Shown here piece after piece: positions 1 to 19,313 of a stretch of 64,000 nucleotides of DNA (positions within the stretch are counted from its first letter, which is position 1; the number at the start of each line of letters is the position of its first letter). Both the position numbers and the translations under genes were made by a program. Origin of the DNA: Rhodospirillaceae bacterium (GTDB lineage: Bacteria; Pseudomonadota; Alphaproteobacteria; SP197); NCBI GenBank assembly GCA_002722885.1, contig PBNE01000005.1:1-64000 (forward strand), given 5' to 3'. The notes under the pieces were generated by a model that saw only the letters and a program-made list of their open reading frames with translations, had not been told where the DNA came from and ran no database searches.

Positions 1-1221
1 CTCGGCTTGAAGACGGCCAGCTTTTCTCAGGCCCGTCGCCTCACCGTCGCCAGTCGGCAGGAAGGTGGACCGGTCGTCTGCCTGCGCTGGGACCTCGATC
101 TCATCGGTCAGGAACCCGGGGCAGACTGGCCGCTCTTCGAGGGACCGGCGCCGGGATCAGAGCATCTGCTCGCGCCGCTGGATCAGATGGCCCACGGCAC
201 CATCGTACTCTGGGAGAAAATGGACCGTATCGTGACGGATGGCTTCGTGGCCACCGACATGATCGAGCTCGTGGATCGCGTGGAGGCGCATCTTGCGATG
301 ACCTTCCATCGCCTCATCGATGGCCAACAGCCTATTCTGCGCCTCTCGCTTAATGGCAGAGGGTTGAAGCCTTGGGATCCGTACCTCATCGGTCATCCCG
401 GCAAGGCGCTCGAAAGTCCGGAGTATCGGATCCTCCACACCACCGGTGTGACCGTGCAATGCCACGTCCTTCCGCATCGCGACATGCTCAAGCCTGCCGA
501 GCAGGAAGCGGCGGCGGGGCCCGGGGGATGGACGCAGCAGGAGGGCTTCTACGTCTACCGCAACAAGCGTCTCCTTCTCGCTGGGGGGTGGCTTGGCCTC
601 GGCGATGACGGCAAACCATGGCCGCGCGATGAAGCTCACAGGCTCGCTCGTATTCGGCTCGACATACCGAACAGCGCGGATGCCGATTGGAAGATCAATG
701 TCCTGAAATCGACGGCCAGCCCCCCGGTGCGTCTGCGATCCCAGCTTCATCGTCTCGCAACAGAAACACGCGACACGGCGCGGCGGGTCTTCGCCCACCG
801 CGGACACGTGACCCCGGCCTCAGGCACGCGCCCGAACGCAGTCGCCGAAGCATGGCAAGCGCGGCGTTCGGCACAAGGAACGTCTTACCGGATCGCTCGT
901 GACCATGATCTTGTCGCCTCGATCCTCGATCGCGCCGGTCCACTCAAGTCCGACATCCTCGCTCTTCTGAGGCTGATCGAAGAGACAGTGCCCGTGCAGC
1001 GTATCTGGCTGGATACGGCGGAAGACAAGGAGACGCCGAGAACTGGCTTCACCGGAGCGGCCGAGAACGAGGTGATGGAGACCCTGTCCTCGATGTTTGA
1101 AGCACTGGTGAAGTTCCGCGGGCTCAGCCCGACCGAGGCACGCGAGCGGCTCGGTCGCACGCCCGCATTCGACCGGCACCTCGACCTCGTTGCAGCCCTT
1201 GAAGAGAAAGACACGCAATGA
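1..1221 (+). CDS. MORC/MutL-type GHKL ATPase, C-terminal part (5' truncated by window edge)
   Basis: The frame is open to base 1 and starts with GLKTASFSQ, which fits the third GHKL ATP-lid motif (G-x-GLK-x-ASFS), so the true start and N-terminal ATPase motifs lie outside the window. The TTG at base 7 is internal. Further on, GFYVYRNKRLLLAGGW, HRLARIRLDIPN and KSTASPP followed by a TRDTARRVFAHRG segment match the S5-like transducer region and tail of prokaryotic MORC-like ATPases found in restriction-type operons. It overlaps the Z1 helicase by 4 nt (ATGA), indicating translational coupling. Family knowledge: GHKL ATPases act as ATP-gated clamps on DNA. By inference this is the switch of the defence complex encoded downstream. 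Confidence 0.85.
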   Translation, partial: LGLKTASFSQARRLTVASRQEGGPVVCLRWDLDLIGQEPGADWPLFEGPAPGSEHLLAPLDQMAHGTIVLWEKMDRIVTDGFVATDMIELVDRVEAHLAMTFHRLIDGQQPILRLSLNGRGLKPWDPYLIGHPGKALESPEYRILHTTGVTVQCHVLPHRDMLKPAEQEAAAGPGGWTQQEGFYVYRNKRLLLAGGWLGLGDDGKPWPRDEAHRLARIRLDIPNSADADWKINVLKSTASPPVRLRSQLHRLATETRDTARRVFAHRGHVTPASGTRPNAVAEAWQARRSAQGTSYRIARDHDLVASILDRAGPLKSDILALLRLIEETVPVQRIWLDTAEDKETPRTGFTGAAENEVMETLSSMFEALVKFRGLSPTEARERLGRTPAFDRHLDLVAALEEKDTQ

Positions 1222-4085
1222 CGATTTCAAACCAGAAGGCCTTCGATTCAATCCTTTCCATGGCCCAGAACATGCTCCGCCTTGCTGCGGAACGCGCTCA
1301 GAGCCCGGTCAATCCGGAAATGATCGAAAAGGAGCTGACCAAGCTGTCGATCATGATGGAGGACGATTTCGCCCTTGTTGATCGGGACGCGCTCGTTGAC
1401 GAACTGATCCGCAGGTCAAGCCGCACGGTGGGCGAGAACGCCACCCTGTCGAGCGGTGAGGACCATATCGCCTGGCTTGATGCAGAAAGGAAGAAGGGCT
1501 GGACGTATTGGCAGCGTTACTCGGAGTACATGGAAGCTCGCATCCCCTGGACGGCCCTAGACGCTCTCGATGTCGCCACTGACGAAGTCCTTTCTCAGCT
1601 CGAGGACCCGACCCGGGAAGGCGCTTGGGATCGTCGCGGCCTGGTCGTGGGCCACGTCCAGTCGGGGAAGACAGGCAACTACACGGGACTGATCTGCAAG
1701 GCTGCCGACGCCGGTTACAAGATCATCATCGTGCTCGCTGGCCTGCACAACAACCTGAGAGCACAGACCCAGATCCGCCTGGACGAGGGGTTTCTCGGCT
1801 TTGCTACCATCGCGGATGCTGACGAGCTCCCGGCAGTGGGGGTCGGACTGATCGACAAGGACATGTCGGTCCGTCCCAATGCTGCAACGAATCGGAGCGA
1901 CAAGGGCGACTTCAACACGGCCGTGGCCGCGAAGATGAATATCAGCCCGGAACAGCGACCGTGGTTGTTCGTCGTCAAGAAAAACAAGACAGTGCTGGAG
2001 CGCCTGCTGCACTGGATCCGCAACCGAGTGGCCAATCACGTCGACCCCGAAACAGGTCGCAAACTTGTCACCAACCTGCCTCTCATGGTGATCGACGACG
2101 AGTCCGATCACGGATCTGTCGACACCGGTGAAGATGTCGTGGACGAGTTCGGCAACCCGGATCTCGAACACGAGCCCAAGACGATCAACAGGTTGATCCG
2201 GTCGATCCTCCACCATTTCTCCCGGAAGGCCTATGTCGGTTACACGGCGACACCCTTTGCGAACATCTTCATTCATGACCGCGGGGAGACTCAGGAGCAC
2301 GGACCGGACCTCTTCCCCGCAGCCTTCATCACCAGCCTTGCGGCGCCATCGAATTATGTCGGACCGGGTCGTGTCTTCGGATCAGCTTCCAGCACGCCGG
2401 AAGACCTGCCTCTGGTGCGCCCGCTTTCGGACGATGAGTTCCTGCCGTGGATGCCGCCACGACACAAGAACGGCTACCGGCCGCGATGGCAGGGGGAGGA
2501 CCGTGTGCCGGACTCGCTCGCAGAAGCGATCCGCTCCTTCGTCTATGCCTGTGCCGTGAGGAAGCTGCGCGGACAGGGCAGCAAACACTCCTCGATGCTC
2601 ATCCACGTCACCCGCTTCACTTCGGTACAGAACGCTGTCGTCAACCAAGTCGCAGAGTACGTGCGAGATCTGAAGGGCCGCTACACCCGCGGCATCGAGC
2701 TCGACAACCTCGAGGCGTTAATGCGCACGGAGTATCAGGAAACCTTTCTGCTAGGGATGCAGCGTATCCGTTCCGCCCTCGTCGAAGGCGAAGCGCTGGA
2801 GGACTTCTCGTGGGCCGACATTCGCGCCGCCCTACCCGACGTGCTGTCCGACATTCGCGTCCGCGAGATAAACGGCACGGCCAAGGACGCACTCGACTAC
2901 GCCGAAAATGATGGCACCGGCCTCAAGGTGATTGCCATCGGCGGCGACAAGCTGGCGCGCGGTCTGACGCTGGAGGGCCTCTGCACAAGTTACTTCCTTC
3001 GGACCGCGCGCATGTACGACACACTGATGCAGATGGGGCGCTGGTTCGGCTACCGCGACGGCTACCTTGATGTCTGCCGCCTCTACACGTCGCAGGAAAT
3101 GGTGGAGTGGTTCGGCCATATCGCCGATGCCGCCGAAGAGTTGCGCCAGGAGTTCGACAACATGGTCGCGGCCGGCGCCACGCCAAAACAATTCGGTCTG
3201 CGGGTGAAATCGCATTCGGTGCTGACGGTGACCTCTCGGGCCAAGATGAGAAACGCTCGAGCGATGCAGCTGACCTATTCGGGCGACCTTCTGCAGACTA
3301 TCGTGTTCCCCAACCGCAAGGACGACATCACGGCGAGCTTCAAGGCCACGGATCGGTTCATCAACACACTCGGTCCATCGACGGATCTGAATGATCAGCA
3401 TTTCGTTCCACAAGGCCAGAAGTGGAACGGTCACCTTTGGCGAGATGTGCCGGCCCTGAGCGTCATCTCGTTCCTGCGGGATTACAGAACCCACCCTGCC
3501 AGTTTTCGGATCATGAGTCCGCTAATTGCGGACTTCATCGAGGAGATGAACAAGGATAGCGAGCTCACGAGCTGGACAGTTGCGCTGATCGGAAAGGATA
3601 CGGGCCCGGACGACAAGTACCGCAAGGTCGGCGGCTCTTCGGTCAACATGCTGAAGCGGAGGAGAACGATCGAACATGCAGATCGATATTCTATCAAGAC
3701 CCTGATCTCGCCTCGCGATCAGGCCATCGATCTGACGGAAGCAGAATGGAAGGCTGCGCTCGACCTCAGCCAGAAAACGTGGCGCAACGATACCGATCGC
3801 AATGAGGGCAAGGAGCCTCCGTCAGAGCCTAGAGGTCCGCAGATCCGTCATATTCTCGGGGAAGGAGACACCGAAGCAGGCGTCCGGGCGCGCCGGGAGC
3901 GTGGTCTCCTGATGCTCTACCTACTCGATCCCGAGGGTGCCGAGGTCGAAGAGCTAAAGGATGCCGATCCCGTCGTCGCCTGGGCAATCAGTTTTCCGTC
4001 AAGCAACTCCGAGAGAAGGGTCTCCAATTCGAGGTACATCGCCAACAGCGTACTGTGGGGAGGCCTCAATGAGTGGGTGGACTGA
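1218..4085 (+). CDS. Z1 domain superfamily II helicase-like ATPase
   Basis: This 955-residue protein has Walker A GHVQSGKT near residue 145, a Walker B-like IDDESD near 292, and YTATPFAN near 340. The Z1 region follows, then GGDKLARG near 574 and the motif VI arginine region MGRWFGYRDG near 605. This arrangement is characteristic of the Z1 family (Pfam Z1), defined as an SF2 helicase associated with GHKL ATPases and nucleases in predicted restriction systems. The start overlaps the GHKL gene by 4 nt, and the end overlaps the nuclease gene by 17 nt. It is probably the DNA-translocating or remodelling motor of the system. Family assignment is confident; the biochemical role is inferred. Confidence 0.9.
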   Translation: MTISNQKAFDSILSMAQNMLRLAAERAQSPVNPEMIEKELTKLSIMMEDDFALVDRDALVDELIRRSSRTVGENATLSSGEDHIAWLDAERKKGWTYWQRYSEYMEARIPWTALDALDVATDEVLSQLEDPTREGAWDRRGLVVGHVQSGKTGNYTGLICKAADAGYKIIIVLAGLHNNLRAQTQIRLDEGFLGFATIADADELPAVGVGLIDKDMSVRPNAATNRSDKGDFNTAVAAKMNISPEQRPWLFVVKKNKTVLERLLHWIRNRVANHVDPETGRKLVTNLPLMVIDDESDHGSVDTGEDVVDEFGNPDLEHEPKTINRLIRSILHHFSRKAYVGYTATPFANIFIHDRGETQEHGPDLFPAAFITSLAAPSNYVGPGRVFGSASSTPEDLPLVRPLSDDEFLPWMPPRHKNGYRPRWQGEDRVPDSLAEAIRSFVYACAVRKLRGQGSKHSSMLIHVTRFTSVQNAVVNQVAEYVRDLKGRYTRGIELDNLEALMRTEYQETFLLGMQRIRSALVEGEALEDFSWADIRAALPDVLSDIRVREINGTAKDALDYAENDGTGLKVIAIGGDKLARGLTLEGLCTSYFLRTARMYDTLMQMGRWFGYRDGYLDVCRLYTSQEMVEWFGHIADAAEELRQEFDNMVAAGATPKQFGLRVKSHSVLTVTSRAKMRNARAMQLTYSGDLLQTIVFPNRKDDITASFKATDRFINTLGPSTDLNDQHFVPQGQKWNGHLWRDVPALSVISFLRDYRTHPASFRIMSPLIADFIEEMNKDSELTSWTVALIGKDTGPDDKYRKVGGSSVNMLKRRRTIEHADRYSIKTLISPRDQAIDLTEAEWKAALDLSQKTWRNDTDRNEGKEPPSEPRGPQIRHILGEGDTEAGVRARRERGLLMLYLLDPEGAEVEELKDADPVVAWAISFPSSNSERRVSNSRYIANSVLWGGLNEWVD

Positions 4086-5073
4086 AGAGGGAATCGCGCG
4101 TGCCTGGCGAGCTCTCGCGCGCCAAGAAACGGCGGAAGACTGGCGGTTTGTCCACCTCACAGGGATGGGCGCCGTCTCGGTCGAAGCAGGCTGTCACTTT
4201 CCGCTCGGTCGGGAAGCCCTGATCGTCTCCTTTCCCGGATCGTGGCCAGTCAATCCGGCACGACTGCCCGAAGGCAAGGGTTTCGACGTCTCCTGCATCG
4301 AGGGTCAAACCGTATTCGCGGGCAAGACGGCGATCGCCCTCGTGAGGCGGCCAGAGGGCTCACCTGATATCTTCGCCATAATGGTCGTGGATGTCTTGAG
4401 AACGCTGGAGACTGCAGCCAACAGCGCGAGCCGCGACGTTGCGGACGCCTTCCTCGAACGGGTCCGGGAGTGGCAGGCTTTCATGGCCCGAACGCACCGT
4501 CCTCTTTCGTCCGATGCGCAGATCGGCCTGCTCGGCGAACTCTGGATGCTCAGGCTGCTCACGGAAACCTCCCTTGGAGGTGGTGCTCTAGACTGCTGGC
4601 AGGGGCCGTTGCGGGCTGCACAGGACTTCCACGTTCGGGGTGGCGCGATAGAGGTGAAGAGCACGGTCCGGACCGGCAGCTTCCTCGCGCGGATCAACAG
4701 CATCGAACAGCTGGATGGTGACCGGGCGCCCAACTTACTGTGTGCCTTTCGCTTCGAGGAGAGTACCGATGGGATCTCACTCGTCGACCTTGTGACTGAA
4801 CTCCGAGAGAGGTTCGGACTGGCTGGAGTGCAACGCGGGTTCGAAGCGCTGCTCATGGTGATGGGGTACCTCGACGAGCACGCAGCGCTCTACGGGCGCA
4901 CACTGACACTGAAGGACGCAAGGGCATTCCGCGCGGAAGGGGACATGCCGCGTCTCACGCGCGCTGCGCTTCCAGCTGCTATCCGCTCAGCTGCCTATGT
5001 GCTCGACCTCGACGCGCTCGAAGTTCCCTCGATCGGACTTTCAGAGTTGATCAACGAATTTGGACTGGATTGA
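4069..5073 (+). CDS. PD-(D/E)XK nuclease of the DUF4420 type
   Basis: The protein has 334 residues. ATG at 4069 is chosen because GGGAGG lies 5 nt upstream, inside the end of the Z1 gene. The nuclease core is visible mid-protein: a helix with GLLGELWMLRLL (Glu), then AAQDFHVRGGAIEVKST, giving the D-x(n)-E-V-K pattern of the PD-(D/E)XK superfamily with all acidic and lysine positions intact. DUF4420 proteins are annotated as putative PD-(D/E)XK enzymes and co-occur with Z1 helicases. It is the best candidate for the DNA-cleaving subunit. The AIPR start follows the stop by 1 nt. Which DNA state it cuts cannot be read from the sequence. Confidence 0.85.
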   Translation: MSGWTEEGIARAWRALARQETAEDWRFVHLTGMGAVSVEAGCHFPLGREALIVSFPGSWPVNPARLPEGKGFDVSCIEGQTVFAGKTAIALVRRPEGSPDIFAIMVVDVLRTLETAANSASRDVADAFLERVREWQAFMARTHRPLSSDAQIGLLGELWMLRLLTETSLGGGALDCWQGPLRAAQDFHVRGGAIEVKSTVRTGSFLARINSIEQLDGDRAPNLLCAFRFEESTDGISLVDLVTELRERFGLAGVQRGFEALLMVMGYLDEHAALYGRTLTLKDARAFRAEGDMPRLTRAALPAAIRSAAYVLDLDALEVPSIGLSELINEFGLD

Positions 5074-5074
5074 C

Positions 5075-6880
5075 ATGAGCCTCGACGAATTTCATCGCAA
5101 CTTTCGTTCCGACCTGCAGACCATTATCGCCGAGCGCGTAGAGGCTGGCGAAGGCCCATTTCCTTCGGATGAGTTCGTTTTTGCAGAAATGGTCATGGAG
5201 CATGTCGCAGAAACCGGGATTTGCGAGTCACCAACCGTCTGCCACTGGAGCGGCAAGGTCGGCAACGCGAAACTCCGCATTACGGGCTATGCGCTCAGCT
5301 CCGATGAAACGGCTCTCGACCTCTTCGTGACCCACTATTTCGGGACCGAAGAACTGAACGATCTCAGGGACTCGGATGCCACCGCAACCGCAAGCGAAGG
5401 CGTTCGCTTTCTGTTTCGAGCGGCAAGCGGCAATCTCGATGCAAGGATCGATCCGACGCATCCCGTCAGGGATCTGGTTGCGACCATTCGTTCTCGCTGG
5501 GGCGACATCGACCGACTTCGTGTGTTCGTGATCACCGATGGCAAGACCAAGACCAAGCGGTTCTCGAACAAAGAGGTTCACCAGAAGATGGTGGCCATCG
5601 AGGCCATGGATATGGAGAGGCTGTTCCGCCACACCGAGGGCAAACCGCGAGACGAACTGGCAGTAAGTTTCGTCCAGTCGATCGGTCGGGCGCTTCCCTG
5701 CGTACATGTTCCAGACCCGGACGCTGACTACGAGTATGCCCTAACTGCCATTCCCGGGCAGCTCATTCGAGATCTCTATCTGCGCTATGGGACGACGCTG
5801 CTCGAAGCCAACGTCCGCACCTTTCTGGGTAACAAGCGCAAGGTCAACAAGAGCATCGTCGAAACGCTGCGAAAGGAACCGGAGCACTTTCTTGCCTTCA
5901 ACAATGGCCTCGTTCTTGTCTGCGACGAAGCGGCGTTCGAGCGGACTGAGGACGGAAATCTGGGCCTGTCGTTCCTGAAGGGCCTGCAGATCGTGAACGG
6001 CGGCCAGACCACCTCGACCATCTACTTCTCATCCCGCGACGATCGCACCATCGATCTCAGCCATGTCATGGTCCCGGCAAAGATCATCATTCTTAAGGGA
6101 TTGCAGGACGAGGCACGCGAGCAACTGATCAGCAACGTGTCACGGTATGCGAACAGTCAGAACGCGGTGAAGATGTCCGACCTGTCGGCAAACCGCCCGT
6201 TCCATCGAGAGCTTGAGAAACTCGCGAACGACACGTGGTGCCCCGACGGTGCAACGCGATGGTTCTACGAGCGCGCAGCTGGCGCCTACAACGTCATGCT
6301 GCTGAGGGAAGGCACCACGCCCGCGAAGAGGCGGAACCTGAAAGAGATGGTCCCGCCGAAACGCAAGCTGATCAAGAACGACATCGCGAAGTACCATGAA
6401 GCGTGGCGCGGCAAGCCGAACCAGGTCGCCATGGCTGGCGAGAAGAACTTCGCGGCCTTCATGGCTGCTCTCGATGACGATCCGACGATTGTGCCCAGCC
6501 CACTCGATGCCCGCTGGTATCGGGCGATGATCGCCAAGGTCATCCTGTTCAAGGCGATCGAGAGCATGATCAAGACGAAGGAGGCGAAGGAGGTGTTCCG
6601 CCAGGGATGGGTGAACATCGCCACCTACGTCGTGTCGGTGGTCGCTGACCGACTTGGCGACAGGCTCGACCTCGAGCAGATATGGATGCGGCAAGGGATT
6701 TCGGGTGGTTTGCGGGACCTGCTTTGGGACTGGGCCGTGATCGTGAACGCCGAATTCAACAGGATCGCTCCGGGTCAGCAGATTTCAGAAGTCGCGAAAC
6801 GTGCGGACACTTGGGCAAAGGTCAGAGCGGCTGACTACCCGCCTCATTCGTTGTCTATTCCTGAGATCAAGTCTCTCTGA
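5075..6880 (+). CDS. AIPR family protein (abortive infection phage resistance)
   Basis: 601 residues from ATG 5075, 1 nt after the preceding stop; a TTG at 5060 is in frame but has no better ribosome site. AIPR hallmarks are present: ANVRTFLGNKRKVNKSI near residue 250, EPEHFLAFNNGLVLVCD near 275, and LQIVNGGQTTSTIYF near 300-315, followed by SRYANSQNAVKMSDL. AIPR proteins are named after a lactococcal abortive-infection protein; the molecular activity is not well established. It sits in the same tight operon as GHKL-Z1-nuclease, so it is probably a core component and possibly the effector. Family call is strong, function inferred. Confidence 0.85.
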   Translation: MSLDEFHRNFRSDLQTIIAERVEAGEGPFPSDEFVFAEMVMEHVAETGICESPTVCHWSGKVGNAKLRITGYALSSDETALDLFVTHYFGTEELNDLRDSDATATASEGVRFLFRAASGNLDARIDPTHPVRDLVATIRSRWGDIDRLRVFVITDGKTKTKRFSNKEVHQKMVAIEAMDMERLFRHTEGKPRDELAVSFVQSIGRALPCVHVPDPDADYEYALTAIPGQLIRDLYLRYGTTLLEANVRTFLGNKRKVNKSIVETLRKEPEHFLAFNNGLVLVCDEAAFERTEDGNLGLSFLKGLQIVNGGQTTSTIYFSSRDDRTIDLSHVMVPAKIIILKGLQDEAREQLISNVSRYANSQNAVKMSDLSANRPFHRELEKLANDTWCPDGATRWFYERAAGAYNVMLLREGTTPAKRRNLKEMVPPKRKLIKNDIAKYHEAWRGKPNQVAMAGEKNFAAFMAALDDDPTIVPSPLDARWYRAMIAKVILFKAIESMIKTKEAKEVFRQGWVNIATYVVSVVADRLGDRLDLEQIWMRQGISGGLRDLLWDWAVIVNAEFNRIAPGQQISEVAKRADTWAKVRAADYPPHSLSIPEIKSL

Positions 6881-6900
6881 ATCGAAGGCGGCCCACTGGC

Positions 6901-7449
6901 ATGCCAGAATCGAAGCAGGATTTGTTAAAGTTTTGCGGTCCGACGGAATACTCCCTAAGGAATCTCGCGGACGGTGTGATCTATTGTCAGCACTATTCAG
7001 CCTATAATGACCCGTTTGAATTCTGGAGCAACATCTACGAGGGAATTCCCGACGCTTTGCGCGAACCTGAGCGCTTTGCAGCGGCGCTCAGGGCGTGGGG
7101 CATGGAAGGTTGTTCACCCCAAGACGAGGATGTGATTGCATACTTCAATGAATGCAAGGATTACCAACCACCATTCCAAGAGATGAGAGACGAAGTAAGA
7201 ATTGCATGTTTTGGCTCGCAACGGGACAACCTGCTTATGTGGTCTCACTACGCAGACGGGCTTCGCGGATTTTGCATTGTCTTTGATGAGAACTTGGTCA
7301 CCAAGGCCGAACCAGAAGGTTATGTTGTGGACGTGGCCTACATTGATGCGCCACCAACTTTGGACAGCTTCGTCTACGCGATCGCTCGGGACCAGGACTG
7401 GTATCATCAGATGGCAATCGAAGAGACGGAAACACGAATCCAGCATTAG
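6901..7449 (+). CDS. DUF2971 protein, apparently interrupted by an in-frame TAG
   Basis: This starts 20 nt after AIPR. Residues 8-40 (LLKFCGPTEYSLRNLADG... then YNDPFEFWSN) and RIACFGSQRDNLLMWSHYADGLRGFCIVFDE match the DUF2971 pattern, with the diagnostic NDPFE and LLMWSHYA-x-GH/RGFC motifs. Translation ends at TAG 7447-7449 after 182 residues, but the same frame stays open to 7602 and carries a plausible family C-terminus (see next feature). The W-x-YE-x-E-x-R segment normally expected just before that end is not clear, so a small deletion may accompany the stop. DUF2971 proteins are frequent in defence islands and their activity is unknown. The gene looks richer in A/T than its neighbours. 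Confidence 0.7.
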   Translation: MPESKQDLLKFCGPTEYSLRNLADGVIYCQHYSAYNDPFEFWSNIYEGIPDALREPERFAAALRAWGMEGCSPQDEDVIAYFNECKDYQPPFQEMRDEVRIACFGSQRDNLLMWSHYADGLRGFCIVFDENLVTKAEPEGYVVDVAYIDAPPTLDSFVYAIARDQDWYHQMAIEETETRIQH

Positions 7450-7602
7450 CCTCGCGAGGCGATCAAGGAAGTCATTCTGGGAGAGCGAATGGTGGACCAC
7501 TATCGAGTGCAAATTCTGGCCTTGATGAAGAAACGCTACACTGGAGTTCCGGTGAGGACGGCTCGTCGTGCGAAAGGTGTTTACACTTTGGTTATCGATT
7601 AA
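7450..7602 (+). pseudogene. C-terminal continuation of the DUF2971 gene after the TAG codon
   Basis: Reading on in the same frame past TAG gives PREAIKEVILGERMVDHY and then a basic tail ending at TAA 7600-7602. An AIxEVILG segment near the C-terminus is typical of DUF2971, so this is the detached end of the same gene and not a separate one. The total would be 234 codons including both stops. The TAA overlaps the convergent methyltransferase stop by 11 nt, so the intact gene once met its neighbour tail to tail. Either a nonsense mutation or stop-codon readthrough is possible; loss of function is likelier. Confidence 0.6.
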
Positions 7603-9148
7603 CCGACCTATTGCTAGCTAGAAGGCTTTCAAACACTAGGCGCGCGATCTGCTTTGCAAGGAACGGCGGCACGGCGTTTCCGACCTGGACATACTGCTGT
7701 GTCCGATTGCCGAGAAACAGGTAATCGTCGGGGAAGGTCTGCAGACGGGCTGCCTCGCGCACGGTCAGGCTGCGGCACTGGATCGGATCGGGATGGATGA
7801 AGTAGTGGCCATCCTTGGAGATGTGGCTCGTGACCGTGGTCGATGCCTCGTCCGCCAACTGAACCCGGAAGCGGTCATTAAACACACCGGTGTGCCAGTT
7901 TCGGTGATCGGGGCTGAGCACCAAAGGAAAGTCCGCGGCCTTCGGGCTGTAGCCACGGACAGTCCCGAATACGGCAGCAAACAGGTAGCGACCCAGATCT
8001 GATGCCATGTGCCCGCGCGTCTCGTGCTGGGCGATCGCGCGAAGTTCCGGTCGCTCGATCCACTGCAGCAACTCATCGTTCGAAGTGCCGTAGCCGTCTG
8101 GCAACCGTGACGCATCCCGAACGATAGGTGGGCTTTCCTTCACTCGCTCCGAAACGGTCAGGAACGCTTCACGAAGCGCATGTTTCTCCTTCCCCTTGGA
8201 GATGCCGGCCAGCAGCTTCGCGGCGTCGAGGACTTCTCCTCGCCAGGCAGCCGCGTTGTCGCGCCCGCGGCTGATGCCGCTTCGCAAGACGGGCATCGTT
8301 TCGATGACATCGCGGACGGTCCGCGCCATCCCGGATACAGCGATCTCCGCATCGGCGGCACGTCCTGCGAGGTCCGAACGGATGCCGACGATGATCACCC
8401 TGTGGCGACGCTGCGGAACTCCGAACGCCTCGGCACGCACGATGAAATCCGAAGGCTGCGCTGCATCCTGCAGGCTGCCTTTGCCATCCTCGACCCGGAT
8501 GGCACGAAGCTCGTAGTGATGGGCGTGACCCGTGCCAAGAGAGGACAAATCCTCCATCAGCATCTCGAAGACAAGTCGGCTTTCGACGGTGGACGAAAGC
8601 ATGCCCTTGACGTTTTCCATAACGAAGGCGGCCGGGCGAAGCTTGTCGAGGACCCGGATGTACTCGCGAAAAAGGTAGTGCCGCGCATCCTCCTCCGGGA
8701 CGTAACCGACTTTGCCTCTGGAGCGGACGCGTCCCACCAGGGAATAGGCCTGACAGGGCGGGCCGCCGATCAGGATCGTGTCATCGTATTTTGCTTTCAG
8801 CGTCGCGATGGCGCCATCTATGGCGGTCGCCGCAGCCCCGGTGCCGAGCTCAAGCGCGCGGGCTTCGTCGATGGCATGCTGCCACGCTTCGGCATCGACG
8901 GCTGACCAGTCCGGTTCGGATGCCAGCCCGGCATGGAAATCGATGAACTCTTTCGGCAAGACGCCATGACGTGCACGGTACTCGCGCAGAAAGGCACGCA
9001 GCGTCAGGGTCCGATGGGCCGACGCCTCCTTCTCGACTGAAATGCCGATCCGGAACGGCGCATGGCCGTCCTCGACGAGGGAAGCGAACCCCTCGCCAAG
9101 TCCGCCCGGGCCGGCGAACAGATCGACAATGCCGAAAGTGGAAGGCAA
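7592..9148 (-). CDS. dcm: DNA cytosine-5 methyltransferase (Dcm/M.EcoRII class)
   Basis: About 518 residues. All main C5-methyltransferase motifs are visible: I DLFAGPGGLGEGF, IV GGPPCQAYS with the catalytic Cys, VI ENVKGM, VIII QRRHRVIIVG and X VQVGNAVPP. The frame is open to an ATG at 9280, but that would overlap vsr and add an unconserved leader. TTG at 9148 is preferred because AGGAG lies 5 nt upstream and motif I then starts at a normal distance. It methylates cytosine in a short DNA target, protecting the host or marking sites for the island nuclease. It converges on the DUF2971 gene and diverges from vsr, as Dcm-Vsr pairs often do. Confidence 0.92.
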   Translation of the reverse strand: MPSTFGIVDLFAGPGGLGEGFASLVEDGHAPFRIGISVEKEASAHRTLTLRAFLREYRARHGVLPKEFIDFHAGLASEPDWSAVDAEAWQHAIDEARALELGTGAAATAIDGAIATLKAKYDDTILIGGPPCQAYSLVGRVRSRGKVGYVPEEDARHYLFREYIRVLDKLRPAAFVMENVKGMLSSTVESRLVFEMLMEDLSSLGTGHAHHYELRAIRVEDGKGSLQDAAQPSDFIVRAEAFGVPQRRHRVIIVGIRSDLAGRAADAEIAVSGMARTVRDVIETMPVLRSGISRGRDNAAAWRGEVLDAAKLLAGISKGKEKHALREAFLTVSERVKESPPIVRDASRLPDGYGTSNDELLQWIERPELRAIAQHETRGHMASDLGRYLFAAVFGTVRGYSPKAADFPLVLSPDHRNWHTGVFNDRFRVQLADEASTTVTSHISKDGHYFIHPDPIQCRSLTVREAARLQTFPDDYLFLGNRTQQYVQVGNAVPPFLAKQIARLVFESLLASNRSVNR

Positions 9149-9215
9149 ATCAGGCTCCTGACGAATTTCATTCAGCCGGTGTATACCAGGTTCAGAGACG
9201 AAAACCAGGACGGAT
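9149..9215. promoter_or_regulatory. Short divergent control region between the methyltransferase and vsr
   Basis: With the methyltransferase starting at TTG 9148 and vsr at GTG 9216, only 67 nt separate the two divergent genes. Both promoters must lie here or within the coding ends. AGGAG for the methyltransferase is at about 9154-9158 on the minus strand. I see no convincing -35/-10 pair or operator dyad. Both genes use non-ATG starts, which would be consistent with low expression. Confidence 0.4.
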
Positions 9216-9680
9216 GTGACCGATATCGTGGACCAGCAGACCCGTTCCCGGATGATGTCGGGGATCAGGGGAAAGAACACCAGGCCCGAGCTGGCTCTCA
9301 GGCGGGCATTGCACGCGCGCGGGTTCCGCTTCCGGCTTCATTCTGGCAAGGTTCACGGTCGACCGGACCTTTTCCTTCCGAAGCACCGGGCCGTGGTCTT
9401 CGTACACGGCTGCTTCTGGCACCGACACGAGGGGTGCCGCTACGCAACCGTACCGGCGACCCGATCGGAGTTCTGGCGGGCGAAGTTCGATGCGAACACC
9501 GCTCGAGACAGTGCCGTTCGCACAAGACTCCTCGAAGACGGGTGGCGCGTGGCGACGGTATGGGAGTGCGCCCTGCGGAAGCCGGAACAGGTGGAAGCCT
9601 CGACGGAAAGCCTGTCGATCTGGCTGCGAACAGAAGAACCTCAGATCGAGATTGGCGACAACAACGCACGTCGATCCTGA
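9216..9680 (+). CDS. vsr: Very short patch repair endonuclease
   Basis: 154 residues starting at GTG. RSRMMSGIRGKNTRPELALRR, GRPDLFLPKHRAVVFVHGCFWHRHEGC and FWRAKFDANTARD match Vsr, including the catalytic Asp of GRPD, the following His, and the Cys/His zinc ligands. Vsr nicks T:G mismatches made when 5-methylcytosine deaminates, so it normally travels with a Dcm-type enzyme, here divergent and next door. It is full length. The pairing indicates that the neighbouring enzyme makes 5-methylcytosine. Confidence 0.93.
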   Translation: MTDIVDQQTRSRMMSGIRGKNTRPELALRRALHARGFRFRLHSGKVHGRPDLFLPKHRAVVFVHGCFWHRHEGCRYATVPATRSEFWRAKFDANTARDSAVRTRLLEDGWRVATVWECALRKPEQVEASTESLSIWLRTEEPQIEIGDNNARRS

Positions 9681-9844
9681 GCTGACCGCGCTGCGCTTGG
9701 CAAAGGGATCGATGATACGCAGTGCCCGAGCCCAAAGCCGGAACAATAGGTTTGCAGAATGTTTGCAAATCATGCTGGGCGCTGCGCTTTCAAACTCTTG
9801 TTCAAAAGCGAAGAGCGCATAACACACTGATATAACAAAGAAAA

Positions 9845-9934
9845 TGGCGGACGGGGAGGGATTCGAACCCCCGAGAGGCTTACACCCCTAACGGTTTTCA
9901 AGACCGCCGCTTTCAACCACTCAGCCACCCGTCC
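9845..9934 (-). tRNA. tRNA-Ser (anticodon TGA)
   Basis: On the minus strand the sequence begins GGACGGGTGGCTGAGTGG and ends CCCGTCC-G-CCA, giving a 7-bp acceptor stem, an encoded CCA, and the GGTTCGAATCC T-arm. The anticodon loop CTTGAAA reads TGA. The 90-nt length with a long variable arm is normal for serine tRNA. Its 3' end faces the defence genes. The 164 bp between vsr and the tRNA contain no gene I can recognise. Confidence 0.97.
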
Positions 9935-15937: not shown

Positions 15938-16420
15938 GTGGACGGGACAGGGATCCTCGTTGTGAAGGCATCCATCACCGCCTTACCCGGGGCCTGGATC
16001 GCTCTTGGTACATGCGACAACGTCCGGTTTCCGTCGATCAACCGCGACGACGTGGCCCGTGTCCTGGCGCTTGAAGCACTCTCTGACGTGCCTGAGATCA
16101 AGGCGCGCGTGGCCCACAGGGCTGTCACGAGCCCCCGAGTGATGAGAACACTGTTTGCTGTGGTCGTTCTGGCCGAGTGTCTGGCCGCGTTGCTTCTTGT
16201 GGCCGGGTCCGGGCTGCTTATGCTCTCCGCCACGGGATTCGTCAGTCAGGAATGCGTTCTTTTGGTCGCGTTGACTGGAGCGGCGGCTTTCACGGGTGTC
16301 TCGGCATCTTTCCTGATCGGCGGTAAGTGGTTTTACTGCTGGTATGGCGAGTTCGGCCAGCAAACCCATCTTCTGGCGACGCTTTGGGGGCTGGCGACAC
16401 TGATTGTGCTGCTGATCTGA
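15938..16420 (+). CDS. DUF2165 family small integral membrane protein
   Basis: 160 residues from GTG 15938, 9 nt after copy 2 of PhyH. The pattern fits DUF2165: a first hydrophobic stretch, DNVRFPSINRDDVARVLAL, then RAVTSPRVMRTLFAVVVLAE, two further membrane helices, GGKWFYCWYGEFGQQ, and a final helix. Four membrane segments are predicted by eye. Function is unknown for the family. There is no good ribosome site before the GTG, so translation may depend on coupling to the PhyH gene. Confidence 0.6.
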   Translation: MDGTGILVVKASITALPGAWIALGTCDNVRFPSINRDDVARVLALEALSDVPEIKARVAHRAVTSPRVMRTLFAVVVLAECLAALLLVAGSGLLMLSATGFVSQECVLLVALTGAAAFTGVSASFLIGGKWFYCWYGEFGQQTHLLATLWGLATLIVLLI

Positions 16421-16428
16421 GGTTCAGA

Positions 16429-17211
16429 TCATGCGCTCCAGCGGCGGCCGACCAACTGGGCACCGCCGTCAATCGGAATGAAACTGCCTGTGATCCAGTC
16501 ACCTGCCGGTGACAGAAGATAGGTCACCAGCCAGCCAATGTCCTGGGGCGTACCCCAACGTGGCACGGGAAGGGTGTCGATGCGTGTCGCGCCACTCTCG
16601 GCCTCGTCGTACTGCGCGATGCCCTCCGTCATCACGGGGCCAGGGCCGACAGCATTGACCAGAATGCCGTGTTCACTCCACTCGAGTGCCAGGGTCTTGG
16701 TGAGGTTCACCACAGCGGCACGCGCCGCAGCCGCATGAGCAAAGTGCTCCATCGCATCGATATGGGCGAAAACCATGTTGACGATCCGGCCCGGCGCACC
16801 GGCTTCCCTGTGCGCCGAGGCAAAGTAACTCGACATCTGCCAGGTACCTTGCACGTTGAGGTCCATGACGGCCCGAAAGCCGTTGGCGGAGATCTCATCG
16901 GCCTTGGCGGCAAACTGGCCGCCGGCATTGTTGACAAGATGGTCAGGCAGACCGCGTTCTTCGATGATCAGCCGGAAGATCGCCGAGACGGCCTCTTCGT
17001 CACGGATGTTGAGCTCGTACCAGGCAGCATCGATGCCCTGATCCCGGAGCCGTCTCGCTGCAGCCTCCAGCACATCCGGACGCCGGGCGGCCAGAGTGAC
17101 CTTGGCGCCGAGACGACCGAGCTCTTCCGCACAGCCATAGCCGATGCCGGTTCCTCCGCCGGTGATCAGCGCATGGGATCCTGTCATCAGGTCTTCGCGA
17201 AAGATCGTCAT
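16429..17211 (-). CDS. PECR/DECR-like enoyl-CoA reductase SDR without the YxxxK pair
   Basis: 260 residues. The Rossmann motif TGGGTGIGYG and VNNAGGQF are present, but the usual Tyr-x-x-x-Lys is replaced: the segment reads HAAAARAAVVNLTKTLALEW. That arrangement closely resembles peroxisomal trans-2-enoyl-CoA reductase (HSGAARAGVYNLTK in the human enzyme), so the loss marks a subfamily and not a defect. Expected reaction: NADPH-dependent reduction of an enoyl- or dienoyl-CoA. It is the last gene of the acyl-CoA operon and overlaps the synthetase stop by 4 nt. Confidence 0.75.
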   Translation of the reverse strand: MTIFREDLMTGSHALITGGGTGIGYGCAEELGRLGAKVTLAARRPDVLEAAARRLRDQGIDAAWYELNIRDEEAVSAIFRLIIEERGLPDHLVNNAGGQFAAKADEISANGFRAVMDLNVQGTWQMSSYFASAHREAGAPGRIVNMVFAHIDAMEHFAHAAAARAAVVNLTKTLALEWSEHGILVNAVGPGPVMTEGIAQYDEAESGATRIDTLPVPRWGTPQDIGWLVTYLLSPAGDWITGSFIPIDGGAQLVGRRWSA

Positions 17212-19313
17212 GTCTGGGGCTTGCCCATTCGCACCAGCGCATCGACGGCCATCACACCCTTGCCCTCAGGGCGAACCATGATGGGATTGATGTCGAGCTC
17301 CTGCAGAGTGGCCACGTGGGCTTCGGCAAAGGCGGCAACGGACGAAACAGCCGCGATGAGAGCCTCAACATCACCCGCCGGTCTGTCTCGGAACCCGGTG
17401 AGAAGCTGGTATCCGCGAAGGCGGCCAAGTGCGACCCCGATCGCCTCAGGCGTTGTCGGCAGCAGCAAGGTCATCGTGTCGCGCATGAGTTCAGTCAGAA
17501 TGCCGCCGCTTCCCAGCATCAGCCCCATGCCCAGTGTGGCATCACGTTTGATCCCAACGATGATTTCGGCCACCGCGTCGGTTACCATGGCATCAACAAG
17601 AACCTGCTCGATGCCCTGCAGTGCCAAAATGGCCGTTGCCGCATCGTGGACCGCCTTTTCATCGCCTAGATTGACGGCAACTGCGCCAAGCTCGGATTTG
17701 TGGGCGAGCTCTTCGCCATGGCCTTTCACAACAACCGGAAGGCCCATCGCCCGCGCTGCCCGCACGGCGTCTCCAGCGGTGTTGCACAGCGCAGATTCGG
17801 GCACTGGCAAACCAAACGCTCCGAGACGGCTCTTGGATTCCGCTTCACTTAACGAACCGATGGCTTCGAGCGGAGAGCACGACAGCAGACGGGTTTCCGG
17901 ACCACCGACTGCGGCAAGAGCGTCCCGCTCCGTCACATAGCGCGCGCCCTTGCCGATACAGGCGAAGGCATCTTCCATACCCTGCAAAGTGATGATGCCG
18001 TGTTCCGCCAGCATGGTGCGCATCCAATCAGGCGCGCCCTCGGGCAGATTGGTGATGACGTAGCAGGGCAGGTCGGTCGCGGCCTTCACATCGAGCATGG
18101 CCTCAGCCGCGGGGTCGTAGCTTGTCGTGTCACCGCGCGACGGGAAATTGATGACCAGCGCAGCAGCATCAGCCGGCTCCGCCAGCATCGTAACCAGCGA
18201 CTTCGCCTGTGCGAGTCGGTCGCCCCATTGCTCCATGGTGACATCAAGCGGATTGGATGCCGTTGCAATGGTCGGGATGACCTCGGCCACCGCTTGCCTG
18301 ACCGGTTCGGAAAGAGCAGGCAGGTCGACGCCATGTCGTTCCGCAAGATCCGCGCAATAACCGGAATCTGTGCCCGAACAGGTTTCGACCAGGAGACGGT
18401 TCCCCTGTGGCACGCCGTTGTGGGCGAACAGTTTGCTCATCTCAAGAAGCTCAGGGAACGTATCGGCCTTGATGATGCCCAAGCGGTCGAACAGGGCGTC
18501 GTAGAGTTCCGGCGACCCTGCCAGCGATCCCGTATGGGTCAGCGCAAGTTCACGCCCCATCTCCGACACGCCGGCCTTCAACGCAATCAGGGGCTTGCCA
18601 TGGTTGAACGACCGTGTCGCCGCCTGTGCAAAGGACGACGCATCGCGTAGCCCTTCGATATAAAGCAGGATCGCATCGACGCGCGGATCGTCGGCCAGGA
18701 CGTCGACTGCGTCGGCTATCTCTGTCACGGACTGGTTGCCCATACTGAAGAGATGGCTGATCGGCAGCGATCGTTCGCTGAAGACCATGTTCCCAATGAT
18801 CGTGCCCGATTGCGCGATCAGCGCCACACCGTGGTCGGGACGTTCGACACCCAACCCCGGCGTCAGGGCAATGGGGACACCGTCGAGGTAATTCACGACC
18901 CCAATACAGTTCGGACCGACCACAGCCATGTCGCCGGCGGCATCAATCAGTTGGCGCTCGAGTTCACCATCACCGGTCTCAGAGAACCCGGCCGTGTAGA
19001 CCACGGCTGACGGTGCGCCCATGGCGTTGAGATCCGCAATGGTCTCAATGGTCCGTTCGGTCGATACCGCAACCCAAGTCGCGTCAGGCACACTGGGGAG
19101 ATCCTTGACCGAGTGGAAACAGGGCACGCCGTCCACCTCCGTCTGCTTCGGATTGACGGCCCAGACATCACCCTCGAAGCCGATTGCCTTGCAGTAGCTG
19201 ATCGCACTTGCGGCCTGACGGCCACCGACAAACGCGATGGAACGCGCATTGACGAGTTTCTTGAGGTTCGCCCGCCGTTTGGCCAGGCGATCGGGCTCAG
19301 GCGAGGCGTTCAC
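17208..19313 (-). CDS. ADP-forming acyl-CoA synthetase, fused alpha-beta form
   Basis: 701 residues. The CoA-binding domain starts near residue 20 (ARSIAFVGG), followed by succinyl-CoA-ligase-like domains with VVGPNCIGV and the phosphohistidine loop LALTHTGSLAGS near residue 257. The ATP-grasp domain comes last (SRLGAFGLPVPE, PVVVKGHGEELAHKSELG). The family makes acyl-CoA with ATP to ADP plus phosphate. The substrate is unknown; the operon partners (acyl-CoA dehydrogenase, enoyl-CoA reductase) suggest it activates a carboxylic acid for catabolism. It overlaps the FrhB gene by 17 nt. Confidence 0.9.
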   Translation of the reverse strand: MNASPEPDRLAKRRANLKKLVNARSIAFVGGRQAASAISYCKAIGFEGDVWAVNPKQTEVDGVPCFHSVKDLPSVPDATWVAVSTERTIETIADLNAMGAPSAVVYTAGFSETGDGELERQLIDAAGDMAVVGPNCIGVVNYLDGVPIALTPGLGVERPDHGVALIAQSGTIIGNMVFSERSLPISHLFSMGNQSVTEIADAVDVLADDPRVDAILLYIEGLRDASSFAQAATRSFNHGKPLIALKAGVSEMGRELALTHTGSLAGSPELYDALFDRLGIIKADTFPELLEMSKLFAHNGVPQGNRLLVETCSGTDSGYCADLAERHGVDLPALSEPVRQAVAEVIPTIATASNPLDVTMEQWGDRLAQAKSLVTMLAEPADAAALVINFPSRGDTTSYDPAAEAMLDVKAATDLPCYVITNLPEGAPDWMRTMLAEHGIITLQGMEDAFACIGKGARYVTERDALAAVGGPETRLLSCSPLEAIGSLSEAESKSRLGAFGLPVPESALCNTAGDAVRAARAMGLPVVVKGHGEELAHKSELGAVAVNLGDEKAVHDAATAILALQGIEQVLVDAMVTDAVAEIIVGIKRDATLGMGLMLGSGGILTELMRDTMTLLLPTTPEAIGVALGRLRGYQLLTGFRDRPAGDVEALIAAVSSVAAFAEAHVATLQELDINPIMVRPEGKGVMAVDALVRMGKPQT

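Follow-up and report, generated by a model that had tools for sequence, protein, structure and literature searches.

We analysed a 64,000-nucleotide stretch of DNA (the window) from a Rhodospirillaceae bacterium (GenBank assembly GCA_002722885.1, contig PBNE01000005.1, positions 1 to 64,000). From comparison of sequences, the seven genes at its left end appear to form a mobile antiphage island of the MZA type, a described kind that has long been predicted to be restriction-like, in which a C5-methyltransferase and a Vsr-type mismatch endonuclease seem to constitute a regular but swappable part. An earlier note on this DNA had located these seven genes correctly, and the families it gave them are borne out by Pfam and PADLOC, which identify all seven proteins; NCBIfam identifies six, with the exception of the DUF2971 protein. 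The same note regarded the cluster as an undescribed defence system, a claim that falls because the genes match the PADLOC and NCBIfam profiles of MZA (mzaABCDE), which was reportedly described by Gao et al. in 2020.

The core of the island is encoded on the forward strand. The first gene, mzaB (1..1221), codes for a GHKL/MORC-like ATPase of which only the C-terminal 406 amino acids (aa) are present, because base 1 of the window is also base 1 of its contig and the N-terminus lies past the contig end. Despite this truncation, the protein matches the GHKL ATPase of MZA in PADLOC with 450 bits (E-value 1.7e-135; profile positions 96-494) and NCBIfam MzaB with 530 bits (positions 83-479). It is followed by mzaC (1218..4085; PADLOC MzaC 1086 bits), the Z1 helicase gene of the earlier note, and by mzaD (3961..5073), which encodes a DUF4420 PD-(D/E)XK nuclease (Pfam DUF4420 9.7e-77; PADLOC MzaD 187 bits) and whose true start may lie downstream of 3961. 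The core ends with mzaE (5060..6880), which opens with a TTG start and encodes an AIPR protein of 606 aa (PADLOC MzaE 523 bits; Pfam AIPR 9e-90 and AIPR_N 1.3e-43). The methyltransferase gene (7592..9280, reverse strand) was recognized by Pfam, PADLOC and NCBIfam matches, and the divergent vsr gene (9216..9680, forward strand) by Pfam Vsr (3e-28), by TIGR00632 above its cut-off and by 1cw0 as the best PDB match (2.4e-33). The Vsr protein conserves D51 and H69, which we take to be its catalytic residues. The nuclease residues E193, D222, E231 and K233 of MzaD are kept in 97 of 97 aligned sequences, MzaC retains the Walker A lysine together with the DDExD and DTLxQMGRWFG motifs, and the N-terminal GHKL motifs are present in full-length relatives of MzaB.

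The gene set is conserved among relatives. The main sample comprised the best 80 of at least 559 confirmed relatives, a non-random set found with the window's own MzaC, in which MzaB is present in 80 loci and MzaD and MzaE in 79 each. In the 44 loci whose flanks measure 9 kb or more on either side of the core (long-flank loci), MzaB, MzaD and MzaE are found in all, the methyltransferase in 38 (tblastn), Vsr in 40, and both of the latter in 36. A small profile for any 5-methylcytosine (m5C) methyltransferase raises the count to 42, and the other two loci (L063 and L075, L-numbers being labels of related loci compared with the window) have one on the same contig, at approximately 20 kb on the upstream side of the core in L063 and 8 kb on the downstream side in L075. 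An extra sample of 16 genomes (14 new, and two duplicates of the main set, L106 being L009 and L109 being L013) gave a window-like methyltransferase in 12 (tblastn; one weak), despite cores that are mostly just 25-39% identical, and another m5C methyltransferase in three of the remaining four. Rarity of AIPR or the methyltransferase in homologous clusters, which the earlier note had named as fatal to a single system, is not seen in these samples. Among 16 genomes of the order, MzaC was matched in two, the window's own and G009 (partial, 52% identical).

The single six-gene system of that note stands only in part: the B-E core with methyltransferase and Vsr recurs, but the DUF2971 gene (6901..7449, forward strand), proposed there as an added effector, was rejected as a component. 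The gene, assigned by Pfam and PADLOC, lies 20 nt after mzaE, is whole (295 aa) in L010 (Marivita sp.) and L032 and matches the PADLOC candidate PDC-S31. However, it occurs in 3 of the 80 loci, close relatives have HNH genes, unknown genes or no gene at all in its place, and the window copy is broken by a 186-bp deletion with a stop at the junction, as seen against two relatives. An effector role for DUF2971 is therefore largely refuted and we regard it as highly improbable; on this comparison the genes worth testing are mzaA to mzaE, the methyltransferase and Vsr, without this cargo gene.

The remaining gene of MZA, mzaA, would lie past the contig end, which cuts mzaB. In six relatives scanned, an open reading frame (ORF) of 563-1094 aa directly 5' of mzaB matches the MzaA and RpoD models, and Pfam finds ankyrin repeats at the N-terminus, along with regions 2 and 4 of sigma70, in MzaA of L010, L028, E. 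coli and Thalassospira. An mzaA-like match, counted at any position in the locus as long as it shares the strand of the core, is present in 41 of the 44 long-flank loci. MzaA diverges fast, with 22% identity between L010 and E. coli, whereas window MzaB and MzaC are 51-52% identical to their E. coli counterparts; mzaA is listed among genes with high mutation density in one study (PMC10924106). The MzaA of L109 is 58% identical to that of L010, although the L109 core is 87-92% identical to the window core. The two MzaA matches of the assembly (435 and 149 bits) fall in ORFs that we read as RpoD and an RpoH-like sigma factor, and its other MzaB match (29 bits) falls in one read as MutL.

Core and methyltransferase-Vsr pair behave as separate modules. 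Across 57 loci, a set that includes duplicates and several near-identical pairs so that the pairs are non-independent, pairwise identities among MzaB, MzaC, MzaD and MzaE correlate at 0.93-0.97 (Spearman 0.88-0.91), those of core and methyltransferase at 0.55-0.64 (Spearman 0.15-0.20), and those of methyltransferase and Vsr at 0.82 (Spearman 0.38). Clear cases of exchange are L024 and L013, approximately 90% identical to the window core but 41-43% to its methyltransferase, and, in the reverse direction, L076, with 48% to the core but 72% to the methyltransferase. The joints are visible in DNA similarity, which delimits the core from 1 to about 6840-6871, the cargo slot to about 7640 and the methyltransferase-Vsr pair to 9657-9697, while L010 is 96-97% identical to the window across all three. 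The side and orientation of the cassette vary among relatives.

The recognition region of the methyltransferases, defined as the stretch of approximately 210 aa between motifs VIII and IX, was located in 67 of 80 enzymes; 13 without the expected motifs were left out, 12 of which lie outside the family of 64 methyltransferases defined by similarity to that of the window, and a later comparison took all 16 non-family enzymes. Within the family, the recognition regions have a median identity of 39% where the catalytic part is 40-45% identical (826 pairs), sampled pairs that were separately aligned reach 41-42%, where the shuffled baseline lies at 20%, and none of 2016 pairs falls below 30%. Recognition regions diverge where targets differ. 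The comparison suggests that members of the family share a target. Homology did not reveal this target, as the aligned stretches of HaeIII, HhaI and 3me5 (presumably a Dcm structure) miss the recognition region.

We favour, with moderate confidence, the prediction that the island is an ATP-driven restriction system directed at unmarked DNA, with 5-methylcytosine as a portable self-mark. The MzaB-E core would restrict DNA that lacks the mark, and 5-methylcytosine set by the exchangeable methyltransferase would serve as the mark of self. Where near-identical cores carry different recognition classes, the methyltransferase itself might supply the specificity, and in E. coli, where the four regions viewed have no linked methyltransferase, the host Dcm/Vsr might substitute for it. 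If true, this would explain the recurrence of Vsr and C5-methyltransferases beside GHKL defence ATPases, an association reportedly pointed out in 2008.

Several observations weigh against this proposal. MzaB to MzaE of the window score below the NCBIfam equivalog cut-offs (530 of 850, 1168 of 1500, 274 of 420 and 690 of 1050 bits, respectively), and the cluster is therefore named MZA-type and not a strict equivalog. The model of MzaC is poor (mean pLDDT 65, pTM 0.41), and its fold search gave no PDB match with an E-value below 0.001; the 50 best matches are mostly SF2 helicases (Brr2, LlaBIII, EcoR124I HsdR, DEAD-box) with a query TM of at most 0.19. Non-family m5C methyltransferases occur in 16 of 99 loci. 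Four of them (L014, L015, L025 and L119; 516-539 aa) form a second class with recognition regions 54-99% identical to one another and 20-22% to the window, which is the shuffled baseline; for L014, L015 and L025 the values are 20-21% in this region and 36-37% in the catalytic part. The cores of these three loci are 87-89% identical to that of the window, L119 being distant. The other twelve non-family enzymes (327-563 aa) are 18-30% identical to the window in the recognition region. Among 18 loci with MzaC at least 85% identical to the window, 12 carry a family methyltransferase and three the second class (L014, L015 and L025); in the remaining three, whose contigs end close by, none is seen. 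A highly similar core thus does not demand one target; the idea that all close cores have one and the same methylation target was rejected in view of the second class, and the core tolerates cassettes that probably differ in target. In E. coli, where 55 genomes have a match, no m5C methyltransferase is linked in any of the four regions viewed; a check for one elsewhere in the genome covered an E. coli control genome, which has an m5C methyltransferase.

A second explanation, which we consider possible but less probable, is that MzaABCDE acts independently of methylation. The methyltransferase and Vsr would then form a unit of their own, for marking or for defence, that travels in the same islands. 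The E. coli regions viewed, which have no linked methyltransferase, and the loose correlation of core and cassette speak for this explanation, and the recurrence of the pair beside the core speaks against it.

Abortive infection, in which the clamp and helicase sense infection or a lost host mark and MzaE or MzaD causes cell death or arrest, seems unlikely to us. In its favour are the name of AIPR, which comes from abortive infection, a match of MzaE to PADLOC AbiU (3e-26) and the presence of MzaE in 79 of the 80 loci of the main sample; for AIPR, the link is one of name. A PDB search found no solved relative of MzaE at an E-value of 1, and by our reading of the alignment its N-terminus lacks a (D/E)xK motif at the presumed nuclease position, the LDLFV strand. 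For a related GHKL-nuclease defence protein, activity is not accompanied by signs of abortive infection (PMC12137116).

Compared with the MZA system of E. coli H9Ecoli, the window has mzaB, mzaC, mzaD and mzaE in the same order, with protein identities of 51, 52, 36 and 40%, but its linked methyltransferase and Vsr are absent from all four E. coli regions viewed. These regions also differ by a gene annotated as a restriction endonuclease 5' of mzaA (Mrr_cat in one scanned; a fragment in L136). The E. coli mzaABCDE genes (L121, L122, L135 and L136) adjoin yecA-tyrP, and in L122 an IS element lies within mzaB. The Thalassospira plasmid locus L123 (15670-18087) shows an unexpected pairing, in that MZA precedes a nuclease whose N-terminal domain is of the AspBHI type, presumably a modification-dependent enzyme, and a small m5C methyltransferase.

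The best PADLOC match of the window methyltransferase is DrmMII of DISARM (273 bits), and DrmA, DrmB and DrmC are not among the PADLOC matches listed for the seven proteins (for the methyltransferase, the best 25 of 59). An earlier predicted restriction-modification gene set has the same gene kinds, an E-D-ExK nuclease and a DThhQXuRhFG helicase motif; the accessible sections of that prediction do not treat cassette exchange, recognition-region classes or the cargo slot. Another compared system has an EcoRII-like nuclease, and AIPR and GHKL are unnamed in the available part of its description. For Type II of their putative defence system, Miller et al. 2022 (PMC9523054) report approximately 20% identity to MzaBCDE and mzaA in a few members only; it differs in both respects from the window and its relatives, given above. 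No mechanistic study of MZA was found in a literature search with most subscription papers and all preprints outside its reach.

On its right side the mobile module has its edge at 9657..9697, where DNA similarity to L006 (Rhodomicrobium), L009, L010, L011, L017 and L032 ends; for six more distant relatives it ends at 9508-9607. A tRNA-Ser(UGA) gene (9845..9934, reverse strand) stands 150-190 bp from this edge, and the flank beyond it is partly common to genus relatives (about 65-78% identity). L006 also has a tRNA-Ser, approximately 0.6 kb after vsr, the one other such case in a scan of 29 loci, 25 of which have no tRNA; this suggests that tRNA-Ser sites are insertion sites. Finally, L063 carries a second AIPR gene (16312-17913) directly after mzaE, with 30% identity to MzaE, and merged matches suggest the same for L069, L070 and L074.
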